From IMG/VR virus record IMGVR_UViG_3300032053_000520, positions 1-23,893 of that record: a stretch of 23,893 nt of DNA. One strand, given 5' to 3'. The position numbers and the translations under genes are program-made. The DNA comes from a virus. The notes below the pieces were generated by a model. The model searched no databases. It saw nothing but the letters and a program-made list of their open reading frames with translations, and was not told the origin of the DNA. Below, piece after piece: positions 10,975 to 22,703 of this stretch; positions within the stretch are counted from its first letter, which is position 1, and each line of letters opens with the position of its first letter.

Positions 10975-11754
10975 ATGAATAAAAAGTTTTATGTATATGT
11001 TGATCTAACGTTAGATGGCGTGCCATTTTATGTTGGAAAAGGCGATGAAAAAAGAATAAAAGTAACAACACGAAATAAACATCACACAAACATAAAAAAC
11101 AAACATGGAATGATGCGTGAAATTGTTGTAGAGACTTCAAGTGAATGGCTGTCTGGTGAGATTGAGAAGGATCTGATAGCAGATCATCATACGTTTGTTG
11201 GTGACAAGTGTTACAACAACGTCGGGTGTAATTATACGTTGGGCGGCGAAGGCGTTTCAGGTAGGGTAACGAGTGAAGCAACTCGTAAAAAGATGCAAAA
11301 ACCAAAGAAACAATCAACACGTGACAAGATGAGCACGTATGCAAAAAACAGGCCACCTGAAGTTCGAAAGAAAATTGCCGATTCGTTACGCGGTAAATCG
11401 TTGTCTAGACAAACAAAAGACAAGATCAGACAAACGCTTACAGGAAGAACGTTGACGGAAGATCACAAAAACAATATCAAAAAAAGCATGTCTGCTGAAA
11501 CAGTTCGTAACAAGATGGGCGTTCAGAACAAAAGAGAAAACCTTTCTGCAAAACGACTTCTTCGTCTGTCAGAAGTTTCATCAAAGGGCGTTATGAAGTG
11601 TGATCGTTCTGGAAACGTGCTCGAGACGTTTCCATCGATAAATGCCGCATCAAAGTCTATAGGCGTTTCTGGAAGTGCAATCTCGCATGTTTTGTGTGGT
11701 TGGACAAAGACGTGTCAGGGATACCTATGGAAATATGCTTCTGTTTCAGATTAG
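10975..11754 (+). CDS. GIY-YIG homing endonuclease, free-standing (Seg-like), 259 aa
   Basis: The GIY-YIG nuclease domain covers about residues 5-95: V-Y-V at 7-9, the YIG-equivalent F-Y-V-G-K-G at 18-23, R27, a probable catalytic Glu within G-E-I-E-K-D-L-I, and N-Y-T-L-G-G-E-G at the domain end. The middle has several NUMOD3-type DNA-binding repeats (T-R-D-K-M-S, V-R-K-K-I-A-D-S-L-R-G-K-S, T-K-D-K-I-R-Q-T-L-T-G-R). Residues about 204-255 are a NUMOD1 helix-turn-helix (F-P-S-I-N-A-A-S-K-S-I-G-V-S then I-S-H-V-L-C-G). Such enzymes cut phage genomes lacking them and spread by repair. The domains appear intact. It lies between two structural genes, so it is an insertion in the late region. An AGGA motif 10 bases upstream may serve as ribosome site. 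Confidence 0.92.
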   Translation: MNKKFYVYVDLTLDGVPFYVGKGDEKRIKVTTRNKHHTNIKNKHGMMREIVVETSSEWLSGEIEKDLIADHHTFVGDKCYNNVGCNYTLGGEGVSGRVTSEATRKKMQKPKKQSTRDKMSTYAKNRPPEVRKKIADSLRGKSLSRQTKDKIRQTLTGRTLTEDHKNNIKKSMSAETVRNKMGVQNKRENLSAKRLLRLSEVSSKGVMKCDRSGNVLETFPSINAASKSIGVSGSAISHVLCGWTKTCQGYLWKYASVSD

Positions 11755-12701: not shown

Positions 12702-13940
12702 ACGGCAATCTTCAAAGAAATTCTACCAAGCGACATTAAGACAGCGCGCTCATTTTTGAATCAGCTTATTGATGTGCTTCAAGAGGATGTGAGCGGATCA
12801 ACTTCACGTCGAAAGTATCAAGTCTTCGTCACCGGAGGAATCGGGCCCGGAGTTACGAGTTCGTTGTTTCAGACGATCTTTGATCAAGATTTTACGCTTC
12901 AGACTGCTAACCCAATCTTTGACATGACGATCGGCCTTCAACCGACTGGAAGCACTGTCATCTCAGCACAGACAGGGACTGATGCTGCAGGTAAGGAACT
13001 CTTTGCATCTTCATCGCTCATGATGCGTGAGAAGATGGACATCTACAGGCAGTTCTCAAAAAACCTTTTGGGTGATACGACTGCACTTTTTACAGCGCCG
13101 TTTGATTCGACCAGCGTTTCAGACATCATTGATGTCGGAATGTTCGTTGCTTTCAAGCGTCTGTTTGCTCGAGATCAGATCAAACGTGAGACCTTTGCAA
13201 TGAGGTTCTATCAGACCGCATCAGCGATCGGTCCAAACGGTCAGACTGACAACCCAGGCGGGTTAGTGAGCGGTCCATGGCATGGAAATCTTGATAGCAC
13301 CTCTATCTCTGGTTCAGCGATCTATACTGATATCGGCGCAGCGACAAACAAGCTTTCAACATTTGGTGGTCAGGTCGGAAATATCGTAGATTCAGCGAAC
13401 ACAGCACGAACAGTAGGTCTCATGTTCTACGATCGAGGCATCGCGGTGTTCGACTTGACGAAGATCACGTCAGCAAGTCAATTCATGTCTGGAAACATTG
13501 ATGCGATGCATCCTCTCGGGCGCATTACACTGGGTGCCTCAGGAACGCAGACGATGTTCAAGTCGAAGTTTATCCCAGACTTTGTCGTCTCGGCGTCAAT
13601 TGATAACGTCGTGGATCACGTCTGTGGTTGCAGGTTCGGTTCAGGTTCACAGACTGCAATGACGTTCCAGAACGTCACAAACATCAATAGCACGCTCATT
13701 TTCTGTCGAGCGCAGGCTGATGAATTCAACTATTCATCCAATCCAACTTTTACTGACGTTGATAGTAGGATTGTTGTGATTGATCCAGGACAAGAAGATA
13801 CCCAACAGTCATTCACTTTTATTACTAGTGTTGGACTTTATGATGCGAACGACAACTTGTTGGCGGTTGCAAAGTTATCGCGCCCGGTTGAGAAGTCGCC
13901 CGAGCGCGATCTCACTCTACGTATACGTTTAGATTTTTGA
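12702..13940 (+). CDS. Virion structural protein, about 412 aa, probable ACG start
   Basis: The first ATG/GTG/TTG in frame is TTG 12756, but the frame is open back to 12669 and the codons before it read A-I-F-K-E-I-L-P-S-D-I-K-T-A-R-S-F, the opening I expect for this family (normally preceded by Met). The codon at the Met position is ACG, correctly spaced from GGAGGGG. Conserved segments include Y-Q-V-F-V-T-G-G-I-G-P-G-V-T-S and F-D-Q-D-F-T-L-Q-T-A-N-P-I-F-D-M. The last 170 or so residues (V-G-L-M-F-Y-D-R-G-I-A-V-F; F-N-Y-S-S-N-P-T-F-T-D; a final L-R-I-R-L-D-F) form a module shared with the C-terminus of the protein encoded at 16676. Such proteins are abundant in marine phage contigs as structural proteins of unknown placement. 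Confidence 0.75.
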   Translation, partial: TAIFKEILPSDIKTARSFLNQLIDVLQEDVSGSTSRRKYQVFVTGGIGPGVTSSLFQTIFDQDFTLQTANPIFDMTIGLQPTGSTVISAQTGTDAAGKELFASSSLMMREKMDIYRQFSKNLLGDTTALFTAPFDSTSVSDIIDVGMFVAFKRLFARDQIKRETFAMRFYQTASAIGPNGQTDNPGGLVSGPWHGNLDSTSISGSAIYTDIGAATNKLSTFGGQVGNIVDSANTARTVGLMFYDRGIAVFDLTKITSASQFMSGNIDAMHPLGRITLGASGTQTMFKSKFIPDFVVSASIDNVVDHVCGCRFGSGSQTAMTFQNVTNINSTLIFCRAQADEFNYSSNPTFTDVDSRIVVIDPGQEDTQQSFTFITSVGLYDANDNLLAVAKLSRPVEKSPERDLTLRIRLDF

Positions 13941-14035: not shown

Positions 14036-14755
14036 ATGGTACTTAGCGTGTACATCATAACATGTAGTGTCAATGCAAAACGTTACGTTGGATTTACACA
14101 TTTGTCAACTGATGAACGATTTAAGGGTCATGTGTCTGACTCTAGTTCTGGATCCTGTTTTGCGTTGCATTCTGCAATTAGAAAATATGGAGTTGAAAAT
14201 TTCACATGTGAAACTCACTCGTGTTATGCAACGCGTGCGCTCGCCGCAGAAGCAGAAATAAATCTGATAGTTGAGCTATCAACACATGTTTCTGGCGGTC
14301 GGGGCTATAACATGACATGTGGTGGTGAGGGTGTTGTTGGGCTTTGTGCAGAGTCACTGGCCCGCATGGGACAAGCTCATAAGAAAGAAAATTTGAAACA
14401 AAGCACTCTAGACAAAATGTCTGTTGCAAAACGTGGAAAAAAGCTATCAGATGTTACAAAAATGAGAATGTCAGTTGCTCACATGGGCAAAATATTCTCA
14501 AACGAGCATCGCCAAAAAATTGGCGCCGCGAACGGCGGAATAAACTGTAAACAAGAAACACGAGAAAAGTTTAGCAAAGCAAAAAGCAAGCCAGTTCAAC
14601 AATTAACGATGTCAGGTGAATTGTTGGCAACGTTTCCTTCAATGAAGGAAGCACAAAAATTAACGGGTGTACATTGGACAAATATCAGTAGGTGTTGTCT
14701 TGGAAGCGCCCGGACCGCGCGCGGATTTGTTTGGCGTTATGTATCTCAGATGTGA
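14036..14755 (+). CDS. GIY-YIG homing endonuclease, free-standing (Seg-like), 239 aa
   Basis: The nuclease domain covers residues 4-100: S-V-Y-I-I-T, then K-R-Y-V-G-F-T at 15-21, R28 within D-E-R-F-K-G-H, A-I-R-K-Y-G-V-E-N-F, a Glu-rich A-E-A-E-I-N segment with the probable catalytic Glu, and G-Y-N-M-T-C-G-G-E-G. NUMOD3-like repeats follow (L-D-K-M-S-V-A-K-R-G-K-K-L-S; M-R-M-S-V-A-H-M-G-K), and a NUMOD1-type helix-turn-helix ends the protein (F-P-S-M-K-E-A-Q-K-L-T-G then I-S-R-C-C-L-G). All key parts appear intact. Layout is the same as that of the gene at 10975, but the sequences are well diverged, so the two are not a recent duplication. A late promoter core is 38 bases upstream. Confidence 0.92.
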   Translation: MVLSVYIITCSVNAKRYVGFTHLSTDERFKGHVSDSSSGSCFALHSAIRKYGVENFTCETHSCYATRALAAEAEINLIVELSTHVSGGRGYNMTCGGEGVVGLCAESLARMGQAHKKENLKQSTLDKMSVAKRGKKLSDVTKMRMSVAHMGKIFSNEHRQKIGAANGGINCKQETREKFSKAKSKPVQQLTMSGELLATFPSMKEAQKLTGVHWTNISRCCLGSARTARGFVWRYVSQM

Positions 14756-14785: not shown

Positions 14786-15133
14786 GTGGCAGACTATGCC
14801 TCACGTCTCAGCGTCTCTTTGACCGGTGATAGCACGACAAAGTTCTTTACCAAGTCACGTACACACGTTGCGACTGGATATACACGTATTGTCATCGGTG
14901 ATCGTGGTCCATATGTTGAGTTTGCACCAGAGATGATCATCGAAAATGCAATGCGCGAAGCAGATGCAGTTCACACATACTATCTCGAGCTTCGGACGAT
15001 ACCGGATGACGTGAAAGTGTATTTTCAGGTGTACCGCGTTGAGTATGCAGATTACGTCCCGGGCCTGTGTTATGTGTCACCGTTTGAACTCTATGATGAA
15101 ACTGGCACTGTCTTGATTGAACCAATCAGATAG
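14786..15133 (+). CDS. Small conserved phage protein, about 115 aa, function unknown
   Basis: I chose GTG 14786 because the product then starts M-A-D-Y-A-S-R-L-S-V-S-L-T-G-D; an in-frame TTG at 14774 would add four residues. Conserved-looking motifs are V-A-T-G-Y-T-R-I-V-I-G-D-R-G-P-Y-V-E-F and Y-F-Q-V-Y-R-V-E-Y-A-D-Y-V-P-G. The pattern is familiar from small hypothetical genes of marine phages. It has a mixed alpha/beta look and no membrane segment. It stands between a GIY-YIG gene and the leader-bearing small genes, nine bases before the next start, which suggests co-transcription with them. Confidence 0.68.
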   Translation: MADYASRLSVSLTGDSTTKFFTKSRTHVATGYTRIVIGDRGPYVEFAPEMIIENAMREADAVHTYYLELRTIPDDVKVYFQVYRVEYADYVPGLCYVSPFELYDETGTVLIEPIR

Positions 15134-15142
15134 TTATGTTTC

Positions 15143-15829
15143 ATGAAAATTCGTTACGGTGACCTCAAAAACATGATAAGTGAGGCAACACGGACGAAAA
15201 CGTTTGAACAGTTCAAAAAAGACTGGTCGGGCAAAAATGTCTTTGTGAGATTTGAAAAACCTCATTCTGGTATACCCGTAAGCTTAAATAGAAATCAAAC
15301 ATATGGCGACGTCTGGGGCGTCTGGGGATTCCATTTGAAATACTCGTGGCCAGAGAAACCGTCATTTTTGGTGTCGATGCAGGACGTGTATGTATATCGA
15401 TTGGTGTCTGGCTCCCGCGTGTTTGATACGGGAGCAAAATACACCGAATCTGATTTTGAACGAGATGAAAAGATCTTACGTAAAAACTATGGTGATGACG
15501 TTGATGTACCTAAACACTGGCGTGATTCAATGATAAAACACATTGTTGCTGATTATGGCGACGACTACGATGTTTCAAGCATTGTAGGTCCTGCGCTCGA
15601 AGACCTTAGTCCAATAAAAAGGCTCGATGCAATCATTTCAATGATGAAGACAACAAAGCAGCGAAATTTCATCTATCGCAAGTTGGGTTATGATGCAGTG
15701 ATCGATTCATCTGGCATCATCACCCGCGGCGTTTATGCTCCAGCTGTTGCGGGTGTCGTTTTAGACACAACCAAGATCCAGATACTTGATTCATACACTC
15801 AACCTCGTCGATGTCAAGAAGACGAATAA
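15143..15829 (+). CDS. Leader-bearing protein with ADP-ribosyltransferase-like domain, 228 aa (candidate internal head protein)
   Basis: The first 14 residues, M-K-I-R-Y-G-D-L-K-N-M-I-S-E, are the leader shared with the proteins at 15840, 16271 and 19947. The rest resembles phage ADP-ribosyltransferase-like proteins by pattern only: an opening strand N-V-F-V-R-F then Y-G-D-V-W-G-V-W-G-F, and near the end F-I-Y-R-K-L-G-Y-D-A-V-I-D followed by G-I-I-T and A-G-V-V-L-D-T-T-K-I-Q-I-L. In that group, a K-x-G-Y-D-x-[LIV]-[LIV] turn and a closing V-x-[FL]-x-x-x-x-I strand recur. I cannot point to all catalytic residues. By analogy with T4 Alt, which has a removable leader and is injected with the DNA, it may modify a host protein. 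The leader is seen; the enzyme call is tentative. Confidence 0.65.
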   Translation: MKIRYGDLKNMISEATRTKTFEQFKKDWSGKNVFVRFEKPHSGIPVSLNRNQTYGDVWGVWGFHLKYSWPEKPSFLVSMQDVYVYRLVSGSRVFDTGAKYTESDFERDEKILRKNYGDDVDVPKHWRDSMIKHIVADYGDDYDVSSIVGPALEDLSPIKRLDAIISMMKTTKQRNFIYRKLGYDAVIDSSGIITRGVYAPAVAGVVLDTTKIQILDSYTQPRRCQEDE

Positions 15830-15839
15830 TTATGCTTTC

Positions 15840-16274
15840 ATGAAGATCACGATTGGTGAATTGAAACATCTGATTAAAGAAGAGATTGATTTGACATCAT
15901 TATCTCATAATCGAAAAACAGATCTTTCTTCAGGACAAGTTTCACTTGTTGACTTTGTTGTTTTGTATCTTGGCGAAAATGGTCCCACTCGTCGAATTGA
16001 ACTTGAACGTGCAATTGATAAATTTCGTGGATGGGTTCCCAAGAAATTCGGAACTGAAACGAGACCTCAGGCTCATACAACAGCATCACACTTATTCTCG
16101 CGAGAATATGGTCATATTTCAAAGGGATTTGAAGATCTTGAATCTGATATAGGAAATCCAAATTATGGATTTGGAACGATGCAAACAACACTTTGGTTTG
16201 GCAATGCAAAAGGTGTGTATGCCTTGAATGCTAATGGCATGGCACGTTATGCAAAGATCGTAGGAACAAAATGA
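15840..16274 (+). CDS. Leader-bearing small protein, 144 aa (candidate internal head protein)
   Basis: I chose the ATG at 15840 over an in-frame upstream start at 15786, which lies inside the previous gene, because the product then begins with the shared leader M-K-I-T-I-G-E-L-K-H-L-I-K-E. After a polar linker, residues about 34-105 (L-V-D-F-V-V-L-Y-L-G-E-N-G-P-T-R-R-I-E-L, then H-T-T-A-S-H-L-F-S-R-E-Y-G) look like a winged-helix fold, which would suggest DNA binding, followed by G-V-Y-A-L-N-A-N-G-M-A-R-Y. That fold is inferred from helix and strand spacing only. The gene begins 10 bases after its neighbour and overlaps the next by ATGA, so the three leader genes form one operon. Confidence 0.68.
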   Translation: MKITIGELKHLIKEEIDLTSLSHNRKTDLSSGQVSLVDFVVLYLGENGPTRRIELERAIDKFRGWVPKKFGTETRPQAHTTASHLFSREYGHISKGFEDLESDIGNPNYGFGTMQTTLWFGNAKGVYALNANGMARYAKIVGTK

Positions 16275-16633
16275 AGATTAAACTTGGTGAATTACGACAG
16301 TTAGTTCGTGAAATGGCAAAGCCTGTGTTGCACGGAGCTCGCAATGGCAAGAAGTTTGAATTCGAAGGTATCCCACTCATCCTTGATACAAAGTCAGATC
16401 CAGAATGGGTCATTTTGACGACCTTAGATGGACAACCCGTTGCTCGACAGTCAAAGGATTCTTCAGGACACTACTATCAACAGAGTTCGTCAAATCCTGA
16501 TTATGAAGGTCGCGAAGGATACGCTCTTGACCAATTCCGTGACGGTGAATGGCACACGTATTCATCAGATGCCCACAAAGGTGAGCTCACGAATGGAACA
16601 TTCTTGCGCCGAACATTGAAGGACAGTTATTGA
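16271..16633 (+). CDS. Leader-bearing small protein, 120 aa (candidate internal head protein)
   Basis: The product begins M-K-I-K-L-G-E-L-R-Q-L-V-R-E, the shared leader. The remaining 106 residues are soluble and unrecognised, with a Gly/Ser/Tyr-rich middle (S-S-G-H-Y-Y-Q-Q-S-S-S-N) and a mixed beta pattern (W-V-I-L-T-T-L-D-G-Q-P-V-A). The start overlaps the stop of the previous gene (ATGA, 16271-16274), which is typical of coupled translation. If the leader is cut after R-E, a protein of about 106 residues would remain. No family is recognised. Confidence 0.65.
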   Translation: MKIKLGELRQLVREMAKPVLHGARNGKKFEFEGIPLILDTKSDPEWVILTTLDGQPVARQSKDSSGHYYQQSSSNPDYEGREGYALDQFRDGEWHTYSSDAHKGELTNGTFLRRTLKDSY

Positions 16634-16656
16634 GAGTGGTAGACCGTTCCTGACGT

Positions 16657-16665
16657 TGTATAGTT
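16657..16665 (+). promoter_or_regulatory. Candidate promoter -10 element (TGTATAGTT)
   Basis: TGTATAGTT stands 11-19 bases before the ATG at 16676 and is preceded by ACCGTTC (16643-16649). The same two blocks with similar spacing precede the structural gene at 1611. There is no convincing ribosome site. It may be a phage promoter producing a nearly leaderless transcript; similarity between two sites is the only support. Confidence 0.3.
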
Positions 16666-16675
16666 ACGACAGGCA

Positions 16676-19168
16676 ATGTCGATCTTCAAAGTAACGCCTG
16701 GCGATATTGAGTCGTTCACGGTCGTAACAAATCCATTCAGGACGTTCGTTTCTAGTTCTGCAGGCGTCACAGGGTCTGTCAATGTTTTTGCCCGTAGGTC
16801 TAGCATTGAGAAGGATGCATCCACATCTTCTGCGTTCGTTGACTCTGCACATGACGACGTTGACATAAACTCATCATTGATGTCACTTCAACAGACCGGT
16901 CGCATTGCAAGAAGCAATACGAACTTGCAACTAGCAGGCACGTTTCCTGGAATGATCTCGAGCTACATGGATCAGGTACATCATTTGGGTGCTTCGTCTC
17001 GTAAGAACAAGCAGATGTTGATCACTCGATTCACGCCGTCTTTTACCTTCACAGAGAATACGATGCGAAAGCTCGTTGTGAAAGACATCTTGACGAAGTA
17101 TCATCGGATCATCTATCCTTCGGCACATTGGGCATACACAAACTACAACTCACTCAACTTCTTCACTGCATCTACGCTGCCCACGTCGTCTTGTCTGATG
17201 TATCCAAACATCGATGGTGGGCCATACCACGCTGGCTACGTTTCAGGAACGTATTCAATGTCAGGCGCTTTCAGTTTTGACTTCTACATCAATCCTCGTT
17301 ACAGGACTGATAACATTGATGGGCAATTCAAGGCAGGAACGCTGCTTCATTTGTCTTCTTCGTACGCTGTTTCATTGGTCACCGGTTCATCGAAAGATGA
17401 AAATGGAATGCCGTTCGGTTACAGGATGAAGCTTCAGTTGAGTCACAGTGCTGATATTGTACCGTCTCTTGCAAAAAATGGCACGTATCCCAATGATCTG
17501 ATTTTCTTGTCAGATGACAATTCATTGCAGTGGAATCGTTGGCACCATGTCATCATAAGGTGGGGTACGAGTGCGATCAATCAAGGCACTGGTTCATTCA
17601 ACATCGACGGCATTGATAGAGGCACGTTTGTTATCCCATCTTCAACGATCACGCCTTTGCTTTATCCCGCGGGCGGACGTTCTGGTCCTGATGTCCTTTG
17701 TGTCGGAAACTTCTACGAAGGAAATAATACGGGATTCGGCGCTCAATCGTACTTCTTTGCAAACGATCCAGCGACTCGTGAAGGTCTGCAAGTATTGAAT
17801 GCAACTGTTGCGATTGATGAACCAACAAAGTACAGTTTCAATCACCCGCTTAATGCTGAAGTGCATGATCTGTCGATTAAGCGCATTTATATGTCAGATG
17901 ACTTCATTGCATTCTCTGCCTCGATGGGTCCAAAGTCATTGAACTCTGACACGGCGTTTTATTTGCCTCCTTTCTTTGTTCAGAACAGTCCATTCAGACA
18001 ATGGGTCGGTACGCATGGTGGAATTCTGCAGACGCCTTTCTTTGAAGTGAATGGAACGACAGACGATCCTTTCAACGTCGCGATGTCGTTCGGCGTCGGT
18101 GGACATTACATCAACATTGAGAACTTCTTGCGAGATTTTGCATCTGATGTCTTTCCGTTGGTTCATCACTTGTCCGCGTCAGCAATTCCGAATACGACAG
18201 CGCTTGAATCTGCGAATCAATTTCTGTATGATGATCCTCGAGTGCGCAAGCGTAATCTTCTGATCATGCCATGCGATGATGGATTGTTTGTCCCGAGCTA
18301 CGAACTACTGGCATCTGAGAGCAACAGAACAAAATCAACAGACGATGCGGGCGTTGAAGAGCTCAGTTACATCAACCTTGACAATCTTGTCTCGACCGCA
18401 TCGCTAATCTTTGGTTCTGCGTTTGAGACTGAAGGCGTGATCGCAACGTCAGCAGAACAATTCGTCAATGACTCGATCGGATTCACACCAGAAGTCCCAG
18501 GAAATTTGCCGGGTCGAGCATTCTTGGGATACGTGAACACTGTCAACAAGGCAGTTGCATCAGGAACGTTCGATGCAGGCGTCCAGACGGGTGCCCCACT
18601 TACCATTTTTCAAAGGACACGTGATGCTTCATCGAATCAGATGACGTTCTTCAACGTGAGCAACATTTTCTATGGCAAACGAATCCTTCCCGGAAGCTTC
18701 CAGATCACAGACTCTGCGATCACAGGTTCTTCACGAGCAATGAGCATCACGCTCAAGGATGATGGCCTAGGAAACATCTACCGTGCTGACTGTTTGACGA
18801 GTGCTTCGAAGTGGAATAGCGTCGGAAGCATCTTTTATGACGAGGGTGTCATTGCGATCAAAAGCCCACACTTGTATTTCTTTGGCAAGGAACAGTTCAG
18901 CATTTCATTCAGAGGTGAGCAGAACATTCATGTCATGAAGCTCGAGGTGATTGCACCCGCAAATCAACTAAATTCATCCTCAAATCCAAACTTCATGGAT
19001 GTGCCTGCATCAGGGTACAAGACTGACACCGATCCAGAGTTTGTGTATGTGACGAGTTTGAATTTTCATGATGAGAATTTCAATGTGATTGCAAAGACAC
19101 AATTGGCACAACCTATTGTGAAGCGTCATGGTGACAGGATAATGTTCAAAGTTGCATTCGACGTTTAA
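16676..19168 (+). CDS. Virion adhesin-like protein with laminin-G-like domain, 830 aa
   Basis: Residues about 190-410 resemble a LamG/concanavalin-like jelly-roll: F-S-F-D-F-Y-I-N-P, then L-Q-W-N-R-W-H-H-V-I-I-R-W-G (about residues 284-297), G-S-F-N-I-D-G-I-D-R-G-T-F, and a closing strand H-D-L-S-I-K-R-I-Y-M-S. The W-x-x-W-H-H-V motif followed by I-D-G is the usual LamG signature. Such domains bind carbohydrates, so a role in host-surface binding is plausible. The last 180 residues (S-I-F-Y-D-E-G-V-I-A-I-K; L-N-S-S-S-N-P-N-F-M-D; M-F-K-V-A-F-D-V at the end) match the C-terminal module of the protein encoded at 12702, suggesting a common anchor in the virion. No signal peptide or chaperone domain was seen. 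Confidence 0.75.
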   Translation: MSIFKVTPGDIESFTVVTNPFRTFVSSSAGVTGSVNVFARRSSIEKDASTSSAFVDSAHDDVDINSSLMSLQQTGRIARSNTNLQLAGTFPGMISSYMDQVHHLGASSRKNKQMLITRFTPSFTFTENTMRKLVVKDILTKYHRIIYPSAHWAYTNYNSLNFFTASTLPTSSCLMYPNIDGGPYHAGYVSGTYSMSGAFSFDFYINPRYRTDNIDGQFKAGTLLHLSSSYAVSLVTGSSKDENGMPFGYRMKLQLSHSADIVPSLAKNGTYPNDLIFLSDDNSLQWNRWHHVIIRWGTSAINQGTGSFNIDGIDRGTFVIPSSTITPLLYPAGGRSGPDVLCVGNFYEGNNTGFGAQSYFFANDPATREGLQVLNATVAIDEPTKYSFNHPLNAEVHDLSIKRIYMSDDFIAFSASMGPKSLNSDTAFYLPPFFVQNSPFRQWVGTHGGILQTPFFEVNGTTDDPFNVAMSFGVGGHYINIENFLRDFASDVFPLVHHLSASAIPNTTALESANQFLYDDPRVRKRNLLIMPCDDGLFVPSYELLASESNRTKSTDDAGVEELSYINLDNLVSTASLIFGSAFETEGVIATSAEQFVNDSIGFTPEVPGNLPGRAFLGYVNTVNKAVASGTFDAGVQTGAPLTIFQRTRDASSNQMTFFNVSNIFYGKRILPGSFQITDSAITGSSRAMSITLKDDGLGNIYRADCLTSASKWNSVGSIFYDEGVIAIKSPHLYFFGKEQFSISFRGEQNIHVMKLEVIAPANQLNSSSNPNFMDVPASGYKTDTDPEFVYVTSLNFHDENFNVIAKTQLAQPIVKRHGDRIMFKVAFDV

Positions 19169-19178
19169 TTTTACCTAG

Positions 19179-19349
19179 GCCAAGATTGATGGAACAAAGA
19201 GGCTCATTGAAGTAAAGCCTAAAGAGTTCATTGACACAGAGAAAAATATGCTCAAAACCGAAGCTGCAACTAAGTGGTGTCTTGAAAACGGATTTGATGA
19301 ATACCTGATTTTTACAGGTGATGAATTAAGAACGATGAAGATCATTTGA
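19179..19349 (+). pseudogene. 5'-truncated remnant of a PD-(D/E)xK (gp4/TnsA-like) nuclease
   Basis: The frame runs from just after a TAG at 19176 to a TGA at 19347 without a proper start, and reads K-I-D-G-T-K-R-L-I-E-V-K-P-K-E-F, then L-K-T-E-A-A-T-K-W-C-L-E-N-G, then L-I-F-T-G-D-E-L. It parallels the intact gene downstream: L-V-E-I-K-P and L-E-A-A-A-T-W-C-K-A-S-G there. E-x-K is the catalytic half of the PD-(D/E)xK site, and the N-terminal half with P-D-F is missing. It is probably the tail of a decayed paralogue of the head-completion nuclease, or of a related homing nuclease. Internal ATGs exist (19248) but without ribosome sites. Confidence 0.6.
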
Positions 19350-19359
19350 ATTAGATGGT

Positions 19360-19382
19360 GTAAGATATTCTCTTACGGAGGG
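19360..19382 (+). promoter_or_regulatory. Hairpin abutting a strong Shine-Dalgarno
   Basis: GTAAGA-TATTC-TCTTAC forms a perfect six-pair hairpin with a five-base loop (19360-19376). The ribosome site GGAGGG (19377-19382) follows directly, then five bases and the ATG at 19388. The hairpin could protect the messenger 5' end or regulate access to the ribosome site. Confidence 0.55.
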
Positions 19383-19387
19383 TAATA

Positions 19388-19495
19388 ATGACTGCTAAAT
19401 TGATTGTACTGATGGGCGTTCTCACGGGTTATGGCATCACCGGCGTTTGTCTTGGTGTCGAGCTCGTCTTGTTTGCCCATTACTTGGGCGTCTGA
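19388..19495 (+). CDS. Small single-span membrane peptide, 35 aa
   Basis: The product is 35 residues, beginning M-T-A-K-L-I-V-L-M-G-V-L-T-G-Y-G and ending F-A-H-Y-L-G-V. Almost the whole peptide is hydrophobic with small Gly residues, so it should cross or sit in the membrane once. Expression is well supported by GGAGGG five bases upstream, the best ribosome site in this part of the window. It stands eight bases before the head-completion gene. No family is recognised; possible roles include membrane disturbance at lysis or superinfection control, neither supported beyond hydrophobicity. Confidence 0.6.
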   Translation: MTAKLIVLMGVLTGYGITGVCLGVELVLFAHYLGV

Positions 19496-19503
19496 CATAT
19501 TAG

Positions 19504-19905
19504 ATGCCTGTCAAACGTAAGAAGCGCAAGAAGAAGCGCCATTACCACACAGGCGTCTACAAGTCGTCAAAGACCGGAGCTGAGTGCAAATTTCGTTCTG
19601 GGTGGGAAGAGAAGTACATGCAGTATTTGGACGCAGATGCGTCCGTCTTGACGTGGTCCTACGAGTCTGTCATCATCCCATACGTGAGCAACAAGAAGAC
19701 TGGCAAGCTGCGAAAGTACTATCCTGATTTCTTGGTCACGTACGTTGCGGGACATAAGATCCTTGTAGAAATCAAGCCCTCGAAGCGAGTGACACAGGTA
19801 AAGGTGGCAAAAAAGCTCGAGGCCGCCGCGACATGGTGTAAGGCCAGTGGAATGGCCCTACAAGTCATCACGGAAATTGAATTGAAGCAACTAGGTCTGC
19901 TTTAA
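19504..19905 (+). CDS. 4: Head completion protein, T4 gp4-like (TnsA-like nuclease fold), 133 aa
   Basis: The 133-residue product matches the layout of T4 gp4 (150 residues): a very basic N-terminus (K-R-K-K-R-K-K-K-R), F-R-S-G-W-E-E-K-Y at 30-38 (compare Y-R-S-N-W-E-K-F-F in T4), L-T-W-S-Y-E-S-V-I-I-P-Y, then Y-Y-P-D-F with D75, L-V-E-I-K-P with E89 and K91, and an ending I-T-E-I-E-L-K-Q-L-G (T4: W-T-E-D-G-L-R-A-L-G). Gp4 acts when DNA-filled heads are completed before tail joining; the fold is a PD-(D/E)xK nuclease and D75, E89 and K91 fit the active site. A truncated relative lies just upstream. Family call is strong; whether it cuts DNA here is unknown. Confidence 0.87.
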   Translation: MPVKRKKRKKKRHYHTGVYKSSKTGAECKFRSGWEEKYMQYLDADASVLTWSYESVIIPYVSNKKTGKLRKYYPDFLVTYVAGHKILVEIKPSKRVTQVKVAKKLEAAATWCKASGMALQVITEIELKQLGLL

Positions 19906-19946
19906 ACGTATTATTCTCGTGTCAATTGAAGAAGATACTTAATTCC

Positions 19947-20327
19947 ATGAAGATCAAACTCGGTGAATTGAAGCGAGTCATTCGTGAAGTTGGAAGCATG
20001 TCTCCTTCGATGTCTTTGAAGGGTGATCATGAGATGCACTTGAAAGCAGCGCTCAGGAAACATGGTCTTGGTGATGATCAAGATTTGCTTGATGATTTGA
20101 TGCAGATTTGGAACTATCGTGAGCCAAATTCATGGATGGGCCTTCGAAAGGCATATATCGACATATATTCTGATCCATCATCTGAAGATGAATTTGATGA
20201 GTTTGACACTGCAGAGGTGACTGCGGAACACGAAGGCGTCCCATCACCCGAGGTATTTATGGATGCATACAAAGCGATGGTTTGTGACCAAAAGCGTTTT
20301 GATAAGCGTTCATCGTACGAGTTTTGA
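19947..20327 (+). CDS. Leader-bearing acidic protein, 126 aa (candidate internal head protein)
   Basis: ATG 19947 is chosen over an in-frame TTG at 19926, since it gives the shared leader M-K-I-K-L-G-E-L-K-R-V-I-R-E at the very N-terminus. After it comes a helical segment (H-L-K-A-A-L-R-K-H-G-L-G-D-D-Q-D-L-L-D-D), W-N-Y-R-E-P-N-S-W-M, and a very acidic run (S-S-E-D-E-F-D-E-F-D). This gene is 3.3 kb from the other three leader genes, so the leader is not merely a local duplication artefact. The cargo has no recognised family. The acidic stretch could mimic DNA, as in some phage anti-restriction proteins, but that is a guess. Confidence 0.66.
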   Translation: MKIKLGELKRVIREVGSMSPSMSLKGDHEMHLKAALRKHGLGDDQDLLDDLMQIWNYREPNSWMGLRKAYIDIYSDPSSEDEFDEFDTAEVTAEHEGVPSPEVFMDAYKAMVCDQKRFDKRSSYEF

Positions 20328-20358: not shown

Positions 20359-20934
20359 ATGACACAGAAGAAACGTTACGCGCTTGGACTTGATGTGAGC
20401 ACTTCGTGCACAGGCATTTGCATCCTTGATAGGGACATTGAACCTGATGCAACTGGAAGTCACATTGTTTTGTTGGACCACGAGCCCTTCAAAAAGTGCA
20501 AGACGATGTGGGATAAGGCAGATCAGATGGGTCGTCAACTCACTTTGATCGCAGTGAATCATCTGATTCATGCTGACTTCGAAGTCTTTGTTGAAGAGGC
20601 GCTATTGGGATTCAGACCTGGACTTTCGTCTGCAACTACGATCGCATCGCTATTGCGATTCAACGGGATCGTGTCCTATCTCTCCAGAAATGTGTTCCAA
20701 GTTGAACCTCAGTTTGTCTCATCTTCTCACGCCCGCAAGGTGTGTGGCATCAAACTTCAGAGGACTGCTGCAGCAGGAAAGAGCCAAAAAGCCCAGGTAT
20801 TTGACCATATGTCAGCGAATGATTTGAAGCATGTTGTCTGGCCATTGAAGAAGAATGGCAAGATCATAGATGGTGCAGGTGATGCTACTGATGCATATGT
20901 GGTCGCTCGAGCCGGCGTTTTGATGAACAAGTGA
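20359..20934 (+). CDS. RuvC-like Holliday-junction resolvase (RNase H fold), 191 aa
   Basis: The order of acidic motifs fits RuvC-type nucleases: L-G-L-D-V-S-T-S-C-T-G with D12, F-V-E-E-A at 77-81 supplying E79/E80, and G-D-A-T-D-A-Y-V-V-A with D175 and D178. A K-rich patch (K-V-C-G-I-K-L, G-K-S-Q-K) lies between, as in related proteins. These enzymes cut branched DNA during recombination or before packaging; T4 uses the unrelated endonuclease VII (gp49), so this may be its functional substitute. The gene heads the replication/recombination block and is followed 24 bases later by the primase. No ribosome site is evident. Confidence 0.85.
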   Translation: MTQKKRYALGLDVSTSCTGICILDRDIEPDATGSHIVLLDHEPFKKCKTMWDKADQMGRQLTLIAVNHLIHADFEVFVEEALLGFRPGLSSATTIASLLRFNGIVSYLSRNVFQVEPQFVSSSHARKVCGIKLQRTAAAGKSQKAQVFDHMSANDLKHVVWPLKKNGKIIDGAGDATDAYVVARAGVLMNK

Positions 20935-21945: not shown

Positions 21946-21984
21946 CTTTTGTACAGGTCACAGAGAGGTGATATATTTCACAAT

Positions 21985-22703
21985 ATGGGATATGTGTATC
22001 GATTGATAAATCGTGAAAATGGTTTGTCATATATTGGACAAGTTAGTCGACCAAAAAGACGATTGCCGATCGTCTTTATGAACACCACAAAGATGCTAGA
22101 AATGGATGCAAACATTTATTATCGTCTGCAATTCGTGAATTTGGTCAAGAAGCCTTTGATTGTGTTGAACTTGATCATAATGATGATCTTCAAAAGATTG
22201 ATGCTGCCGAGCGTTTCTATATCAAACAATTCAATACGAATGTTTCATGTGGGGGAGATGGATACAATATGACATCTGGGGGACAGGGGACAACGGGATT
22301 TAAATGGTCAGAGAAATCAAGAGATAAAAAACGTCAACATTGTCCTGTTGATTTAACTACGTTAGATGCTGATTTAAAAGAGTTATCTTGGATTGATGCT
22401 GCACAAAAATATAACGTAGCATGTTCGACGATTCGACGATGGGCTTTAGAATTTGGTATTCAGAAGTTACCAATTAAGCAAAAGTTCAATAATCAAATTG
22501 TTGGAAAGTGGACTGAAGCTGATGAAGTCAAACTACTTGAAATGTATTTGTTAGGATCGTCGCTTAGTGATATTGCTATGTGTTTGATTCGTAGTAAAAC
22601 AGCCATTGTTGTAAAACTTGCACGTTTGAAAAAGTTTCATAATGTAAAACAACGACGTTTTAGGAATCAACACATTGAGCAATTTTTGGTGCACAATGAT
22701 TAA
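21985..22703 (+). pseudogene. GIY-YIG homing endonuclease with Myb-like C-terminus, broken by a frame shift
   Basis: From ATG 21985 the frame reads G-Y-V-Y-R-L-I-N-R-E-N-G-L-S-Y-I-G-Q, a clear GIY-YIG start. Around 22055-22065 the homology passes to the -1 frame: I-A-D-R-L-Y-E-H-H-K-D-A-R-N-G, A-I-R-E-F-G-Q-E-A-F, A-A-E-R-F-Y-I-K-Q-F-N and G-Y-N-M-T-S-G-G-Q. The C-terminal part holds a helix-turn-helix (W-I-D-A-A-Q-K-Y-N-V-A-C-S-T-I-R-R-W) and a Myb/SANT-like segment (K-W-T-E-A-D-E-V-K-L-L-E-M-Y then A-I-V-V-K-L-A-R-L). One base is missing near CCAAAAAGACGATTG, in or just after an A run. The end overlaps the next start by eight bases. Either a dead gene or an assembly error. Confidence 0.85.

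Follow-up and report, generated by a model that had tools for sequence, protein, structure and literature searches.

In phage T4, the internal proteins IPI, IPII and IPIII and the Alt propeptide carry a capsid-targeting sequence (CTS), a short N-terminal peptide found on unrelated proteins that ends in hydrophobic-x-E for the gp21-family protease and precedes variable cargo, including one ADP-ribosyltransferase (ART) (PMC9026906, PMC3012670). T4 gp21 cleaves after L/I-x-E. For packaging, the N-terminal ten residues of IPIII are enough, with residues 4 and 7 contributing to targeting and residues 8 and 10 to processing (PMC9026906). The giant phages phiKZ and SPN3US likewise bear N-terminal propeptides that are cut after x-E by diverged gp21-like proteases, and likewise process many proteins that are packed with the DNA (PMC9026906). 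Polyvalent proteins, after which the ART-PolyVal domain is named, are also predicted to enter the cell with phage DNA (PMC5512222). Here we describe a 14-residue leader on four dissimilar small proteins encoded by IMG/VR virus record IMGVR_UViG_3300032053_000520 (hereafter the window, which is the entire 23,893 bp record and a fragment of the genome of an uncultured T4-like phage). Sequence comparison makes it probable that this leader is a capsid-targeting propeptide working as the T4 peptide does, removed by a gp21-type protease and preceding cargo that is injected as effectors.

The leader pattern MKIxxG[DE]L[KR]xx[IV]xE, searched in DNA form, has exactly four matches in the window, all at gene starts (15143, 15840, 16271 and 19947), compared to no matches in 100 dinucleotide shuffles of the window. 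All four genes lie on the plus strand. Leader 1 (MKIRYGDLKNMISE, 15143..15184, predicted cut after E14) precedes cargo 1 (15185..15829), the remainder of a 228-amino-acid (aa) orphan protein with no family or relative; leader 2 (MKITIGELKHLIKE, 15840..15881) precedes cargo 2 (15882..16274, remainder of a 144-aa orphan); leader 3 (MKIKLGELRQLVRE, 16271..16312), whose start overlaps the stop of the 15840 gene as ATGA, precedes cargo 3 (16313..16633, remainder of a 120-aa orphan); and leader 4 (MKIKLGELKRVIRE, 19947..19988) precedes cargo 4 (19989..20327, remainder of a 126-aa acidic orphan). The first three genes form a compact operon, and the ATGs of 15840 and 19947 each lie within a longer frame with an upstream TTG. 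The bodies of the four proteins are mutually dissimilar (best pairwise BLASTP E about 0.9), and we found no Pfam or PHROG family for any of them, no relatives of cargos 1 and 2 among viral contigs, and no detectable relatives of any of the four cargos in our searches or in the comparison with collinear phages.

Between 1/8 and 6/7 of the identical non-Met residues differ in codon, depending on the pair of leaders compared, indicating that the peptide, not the DNA, is conserved. Both observations with which the original prediction began, a common leader on four dissimilar proteins and synonymous variation of its codons, therefore stand. The same codon variation, together with conservation that tracks amino-acid classes, leaves next to no probability that the stretch is conserved as a DNA or RNA element, such as a translation or recombination signal, with the peptide as a by-product, even though the sequence ATA[AG]TTA lies just upstream of some leader genes and the genes resemble inserted cassettes.

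Because the pattern was derived from these same four genes, its independent test lies in other genomes. A scan of 2.9 million viral contigs in IMG/VR returned 26 stretches, about 22 of which are true gene N-termini. Applied to bacterial and archaeal genomes (257 Gb), the scan returned 22 stretches, mostly inside longer frames or chance-like. The only cellular short-gene starts with the pattern were a 38-aa open reading frame (ORF; three copies, also present in viral contig L005) and a single weak ORF of 71 aa that has Phe at position 8. No gene start comparable to the viral leader genes was thus found with the strict pattern in the 257 Gb, and a host origin of the leader was rejected on this basis; the scans gave no sign of a leader residing mainly in host or non-virion enzymes, the finding that the original prediction had named as fatal to it. 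We set aside the viral matches in L004, L005 and L020 as probable chance matches, the last being an HK97-type capsid gene beginning MKITRGELQEIIHE. A profile built from the viral leaders recovered 112 starts versus 1 in shuffled N-termini at equal score, and these scores, the window shuffles and the residue conservation described below rule out a chance origin. Searching related phages, as the original prediction had proposed, yielded many leader proteins with very diverse cargo: 20 leader genes in contig G009 (278 kb), 11 in G004, about nine each in G011, G006 and G025, and four in the window. A tblastn search of INPHARED with a 20-residue consensus leader and a gp21-adjacent leader protein gave no match, and the strings LRRIIREE, LRQIIREE, LRKIIREE and LKQIIKEE were not found in the literature text searched. 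In the 484-kb uncultured phage LR756508.1, six consecutive small genes about 9 kb before gp23 (L256:463-2784) have leader-like N-termini; two genes after gp23 begin with the short leader-like MRLKEILLE and MRLKNVLLKE and are ART-like by eye, with no Pfam match.

Across 117 dereplicated leader proteins, the consensus is M-K-[IL]-T-x-x-[EQ]-L-[RK]-x-[IL]-[IV]-[KR]-E-[E/A/V]-[LVI]. Conservation spans residues 1-16 and information falls to background from residue 17, placing the boundary of the leader at about residue 16. The most constant positions are L8 (113 proteins), [ILV] at 12 (116) and E14 (111), followed by K/R at 13 (89). The ending [ILV]xE occupies residues 12-14 in 110 of the 117 and the strict [IL]xE in 93, while [ILV][KR]E occurs there in 84 of 117 leaders versus 15 of 1005 other gene starts of the same phages, a comparison that is descriptive only, since leaders were selected partly on these positions. 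In the window, the predicted [IV]-x-E ending holds for all four leaders (three IxE and one VRE), although VRE falls outside T4's strict [L/I]-x-E. The cargo of 116 of these proteins resolves into about 80 BLAST clusters; as in T4-type capsid targeting, a peptide is conserved on otherwise unrelated proteins (117 proteins, about 80 clusters).

One cargo family is found behind several leaders. We collected proteins with the motif GYGPLLYD by a DNA motif scan and found that the 35 distinct members bear at least four dissimilar leaders, for example MKIRLGELRRIIRE, MKLLMENWREYLNE, MRLLREYIREMLTE and MKRQLQTFKEFIEE, or no leader. In 16 of the 35, an [ILVM]xE has its Glu at residue 14; no other single position serves as its end in more than 4 members. 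Members occur behind both the first leader type and a second type, MKKLLTEWRKYLKE, which heads nine genes of G004 beside eleven of the first type (L235:1-12000); two first-type proteins of that contig (L235, 9904-10296 and 10293-10562) are extremely Lys/Arg-rich, like DNA-binding packaged proteins. An AlphaFold2 model of a leader-bearing family member has a mean predicted local distance difference test (pLDDT) score of 88; in it the leader is a helix of low confidence, and the body that follows is well predicted. Nearly all of the best structural matches to this body are GNAT acetyltransferases (Z 5-6.8 over 90-120 residues), so that the fold is probably GNAT as judged from the model; by itself, Foldseek returned no PDB match with E below 0.001.

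Other leaders precede recognisable domains. In G023, a RelA/SpoT-type HD domain resembling alarmone hydrolases begins at residue 18-24 behind MQIKYGNLRMLISE, and in G004 an ART-PolyVal domain begins at residue 19 behind the second-type leader MKQLLTEWRKYLKE and a zeta-toxin-like kinase follows MDIKQLKQLIKE. T4 Alt is itself an injected ADP-ribosyltransferase (PMC9026906), and both HD alarmone hydrolases and ARTs are found among jumbo-phage proteins predicted to act in counter-defence and among injected polyvalent proteins (PMC7824862, PMC5512222). A by-eye likeness of cargo 1 to ADP-ribosyltransferases was discarded after hidden Markov model (HMM) scans and a PDB sequence search came back empty and a single-sequence model reached a pLDDT of 35. 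PADLOC gave weak, scattered matches only.

These cargos bear on whether the leader proteins might be a single fast-diverging family of which only the N-terminus is still recognisable, rather than independent proteins with a common tag. Most cargos are orphans, and a deep common origin is conceivable for them one by one. However, the leader precedes unrelated known folds (HD and GNAT, with ART behind the second leader type) and one cargo family bears several leaders, which contradicts this explanation for the recognised cargos and makes it very improbable overall. By a narrow balance of judgement, it is more likely than not that large T4-type phages have a general export grammar for injected proteins, in which several dissimilar 14-residue leaders (MKIxxGELRRIIRE, MKKLLTEWRKYLKE, MRLLREYIREMLTE and MKRELQVFKDFLEE) would be interchangeable on the same cargo, would all place a protease site at residue 14, and would deliver at least 20 different effectors per virion, a set that could be read from N-termini as signal peptides are.

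The phages that carry the leader have a T4-type head module. Peptidase_S77, the gp21 family, is encoded in 9 of the 21 leader contigs, and Gp23 scores above cut-off in 8 of the 21. Among 18 relatives found via a window tail protein or primase, 14 encode a gp21-type protease. The collinear G023, G009 and G025 are among the genomes with the protease, and the positions of T4 His85 and Ser140, which we take to be the catalytic residues, are invariant in the aligned proteases. The gp21-type prohead protease that the original prediction called for is therefore present in related phages. The window is collinear with G023, G025, G009 and G006 (PhoH, tail-type proteins, the gp4-like protein, RuvC, primase and the 22675 gene match), and thus with contigs encoding gp21, gp23 and a T4-like head cassette; in G009 the collinear block lies 6-30 kb from gp21 and gp23. 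The G009 cassette runs portal, X, gp21, leader protein, small leader-like protein, X, scaffold, gp23, with a further leader protein gene about 100 bp after gp23, and the two largest cargo clusters are small proteins encoded immediately after gp21. The gp22-like scaffold of G009 (L080:8382-10286) and its homologs end in RWxxLAG, as does one G009 leader protein, which may indicate a second, C-terminal tag; the C-terminus of cargo 2 (window 16240-16274, ARYAKIVGTK) resembles the scaffold C-terminus RWAKLAGIAK. Enrichment of RWxxLAG on leader proteins is only mild (2/89, post hoc p 0.014).

A short amphipathic N-terminal helix would suit many targets, and the leader genes are dispersed over the genome, as might be expected if the leader addressed its proteins to a phage compartment, a membrane, a tail part or a host complex. 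We consider such a non-head address quite unlikely given the association of leaders with gp21 and gp23 contigs and cassettes and the protease-like ending of the leader.

The capsid protein provides a second line of evidence on processing. In eight capsid proteins from leader contigs and window relatives, which represent few lineages, the T4 gp23 cut site FLTE|A aligns with [VL]-L-[KR]-E, the next residue being S, V or A, and the capsid site therefore has the hydrophobic-basic-Glu ending of the leaders. As a sequence match, this is evidence independent of the leader data, though from few lineages. Together with the retention of E14 across dissimilar leaders, the [KR]-E ending of the capsid site supports the reading of these proteins as head-packaged that the original prediction had offered.

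We infer that the amphipathic N-terminal helix of the leader (I3, L8, I11/I12 and a hydrophobic residue at 16) would dock late-made proteins into the prohead scaffold core during head assembly. A gp21-type prohead protease would then cut after [ILV]-[KR]-E14 and release the cargo inside the head, from which it would enter the cell along with the DNA and act early in host takeover or counter-defence.

Several observations weigh against this route. Residue 15 is often E and residue 16 is a conserved hydrophobic, so that conservation runs two residues past the proposed cut. In the cultured relative Flavobacterium phage immuto (MW353175), whose protein QQO91870 begins MKKSQLRQIIKEAL, and in Mel-JY01, the capsid residue before Glu (P2) is S, not K/R. 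The net charges of the window cargos are +1, +2, -3 and -12, compared to the basic internal proteins of T4. Finally, gp21 and gp23 are absent from the window, which is a 24-kb fragment, and neither was detectable by HMMs in G004 despite its 11 leader genes.

The conservation at residues 15 and 16 leaves room for the leader as an uncleaved helix that docks onto the prohead scaffold or inner capsid surface, with the tagged proteins being core or minor head proteins that need not be injected. In its favour, the two largest cargo clusters adjoin gp21 in the scaffold cassette, and the gp23 N-terminus, MKSFTIDQLAQGIKE, is leader-like even though the predicted cut in gp23 lies far downstream of it. 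However, uncleaved docking accounts neither for the retention of E at residue 14 across dissimilar leaders nor for the match to the capsid cleavage site, and we regard it as unlikely.

The cleaved, capsid-targeting leader would resemble the T4 CTS in function, but it is not recognisably homologous in sequence. The T4 peptide MKTYQEFIAE scores -21.6 on the leader profile versus 14 to 50 for the leaders and is unrelated beyond MK, in agreement with the original prediction, which had drawn the analogy as functional only. The leader has 14 residues compared to ten in T4 and a basic residue before Glu, and its use is more extensive than that of the T4 peptide, with up to 20 tagged proteins per contig. 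The phiKZ motif is S/A-x-E and belongs to a different phage lineage (PMC9026906), and polyvalent proteins are multidomain chains (PMC5512222), whereas leader proteins are small, mostly single-domain, and carry a common tag.

Comparison of gene junctions suggests how leader genes are arranged. Leader genes 1-3 lie between two conserved structural-type genes (12756..13940 and 16676..19168, both plus strand), whose homologs in G009 are about 5-25 bp apart, with 23 bp separating the left-hand homolog from the conserved gene that follows it; in the window this junction contains a probable GIY-YIG endonuclease gene, another small gene and the three leader genes. Leader gene 4 lies between genes for a gp4-like head closure protein with a TnsA-like nuclease fold (19504..19905, plus strand) and a RuvC-like resolvase (20359..20934, plus strand), whose G009 homologs are about 35 bp apart. 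The corresponding conserved-gene junctions in G011, G015, G023, L148, L167 and L172 are occupied by different leader genes, whose cargo is unrelated. By this comparison, a leader and its cargo act as a cassette unit inserted among conserved late genes, much like the internal proteins of T-even phages, whose sets vary (PMC3012670). By eye, two genes of the window (10975-11754 and 14036-14755) probably encode homing endonucleases of the GIY-YIG type; the latter shares the inserted block with leader genes 1-3 and may bear on cassette movement.

The sequence ATA[AG]TTA occurs within 50 bp upstream of 6 of 20 G009 leader genes versus 19 of 351 other G009 genes (p 0.001); genes for tail sheath, tail tube and lysozyme are among these others. 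Within the window, the genes at 15143, 15840 and 16676 have the motif upstream. The late-promoter-like ATAGTTA before leader gene 1 (15130..15136, plus strand) overlaps the stop of the preceding gene, and ATAATTA before leader gene 2 (15826..15832, plus strand) overlaps the stop of leader gene 1; both are weak candidates. The motif fits late expression of the leader genes, but this evidence is weak because the motif can overlap stops, emerged post hoc and shows no enrichment in some contigs. It may be the late promoter of these phages (L085:4011-7628, L089:3543-4310, window 15130 and 15826).

Elsewhere in the window, the PhoH gene (54-1454) has an apparent intein with a DUF559-like nuclease part within its Walker A motif (YANGIVSHN|TGKT), which is unbroken in four relatives (G009, G023, G006 and G025). 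Small frames at 21949-22703, between the primase and the 22675 gene, resemble by eye a broken or split homing-endonuclease insertion.

To our knowledge, the proteins that most phages inject have no general sequence signature by which to recognise them. The tag described here could identify phage injected proteins from sequence alone, and would add candidate packaging leaders besides that of T4 for protein-delivery work. With an N-terminal tag that can be read in this way, dozens of orphan genes in each large phage could be predicted to encode injected effectors or anti-defence proteins.

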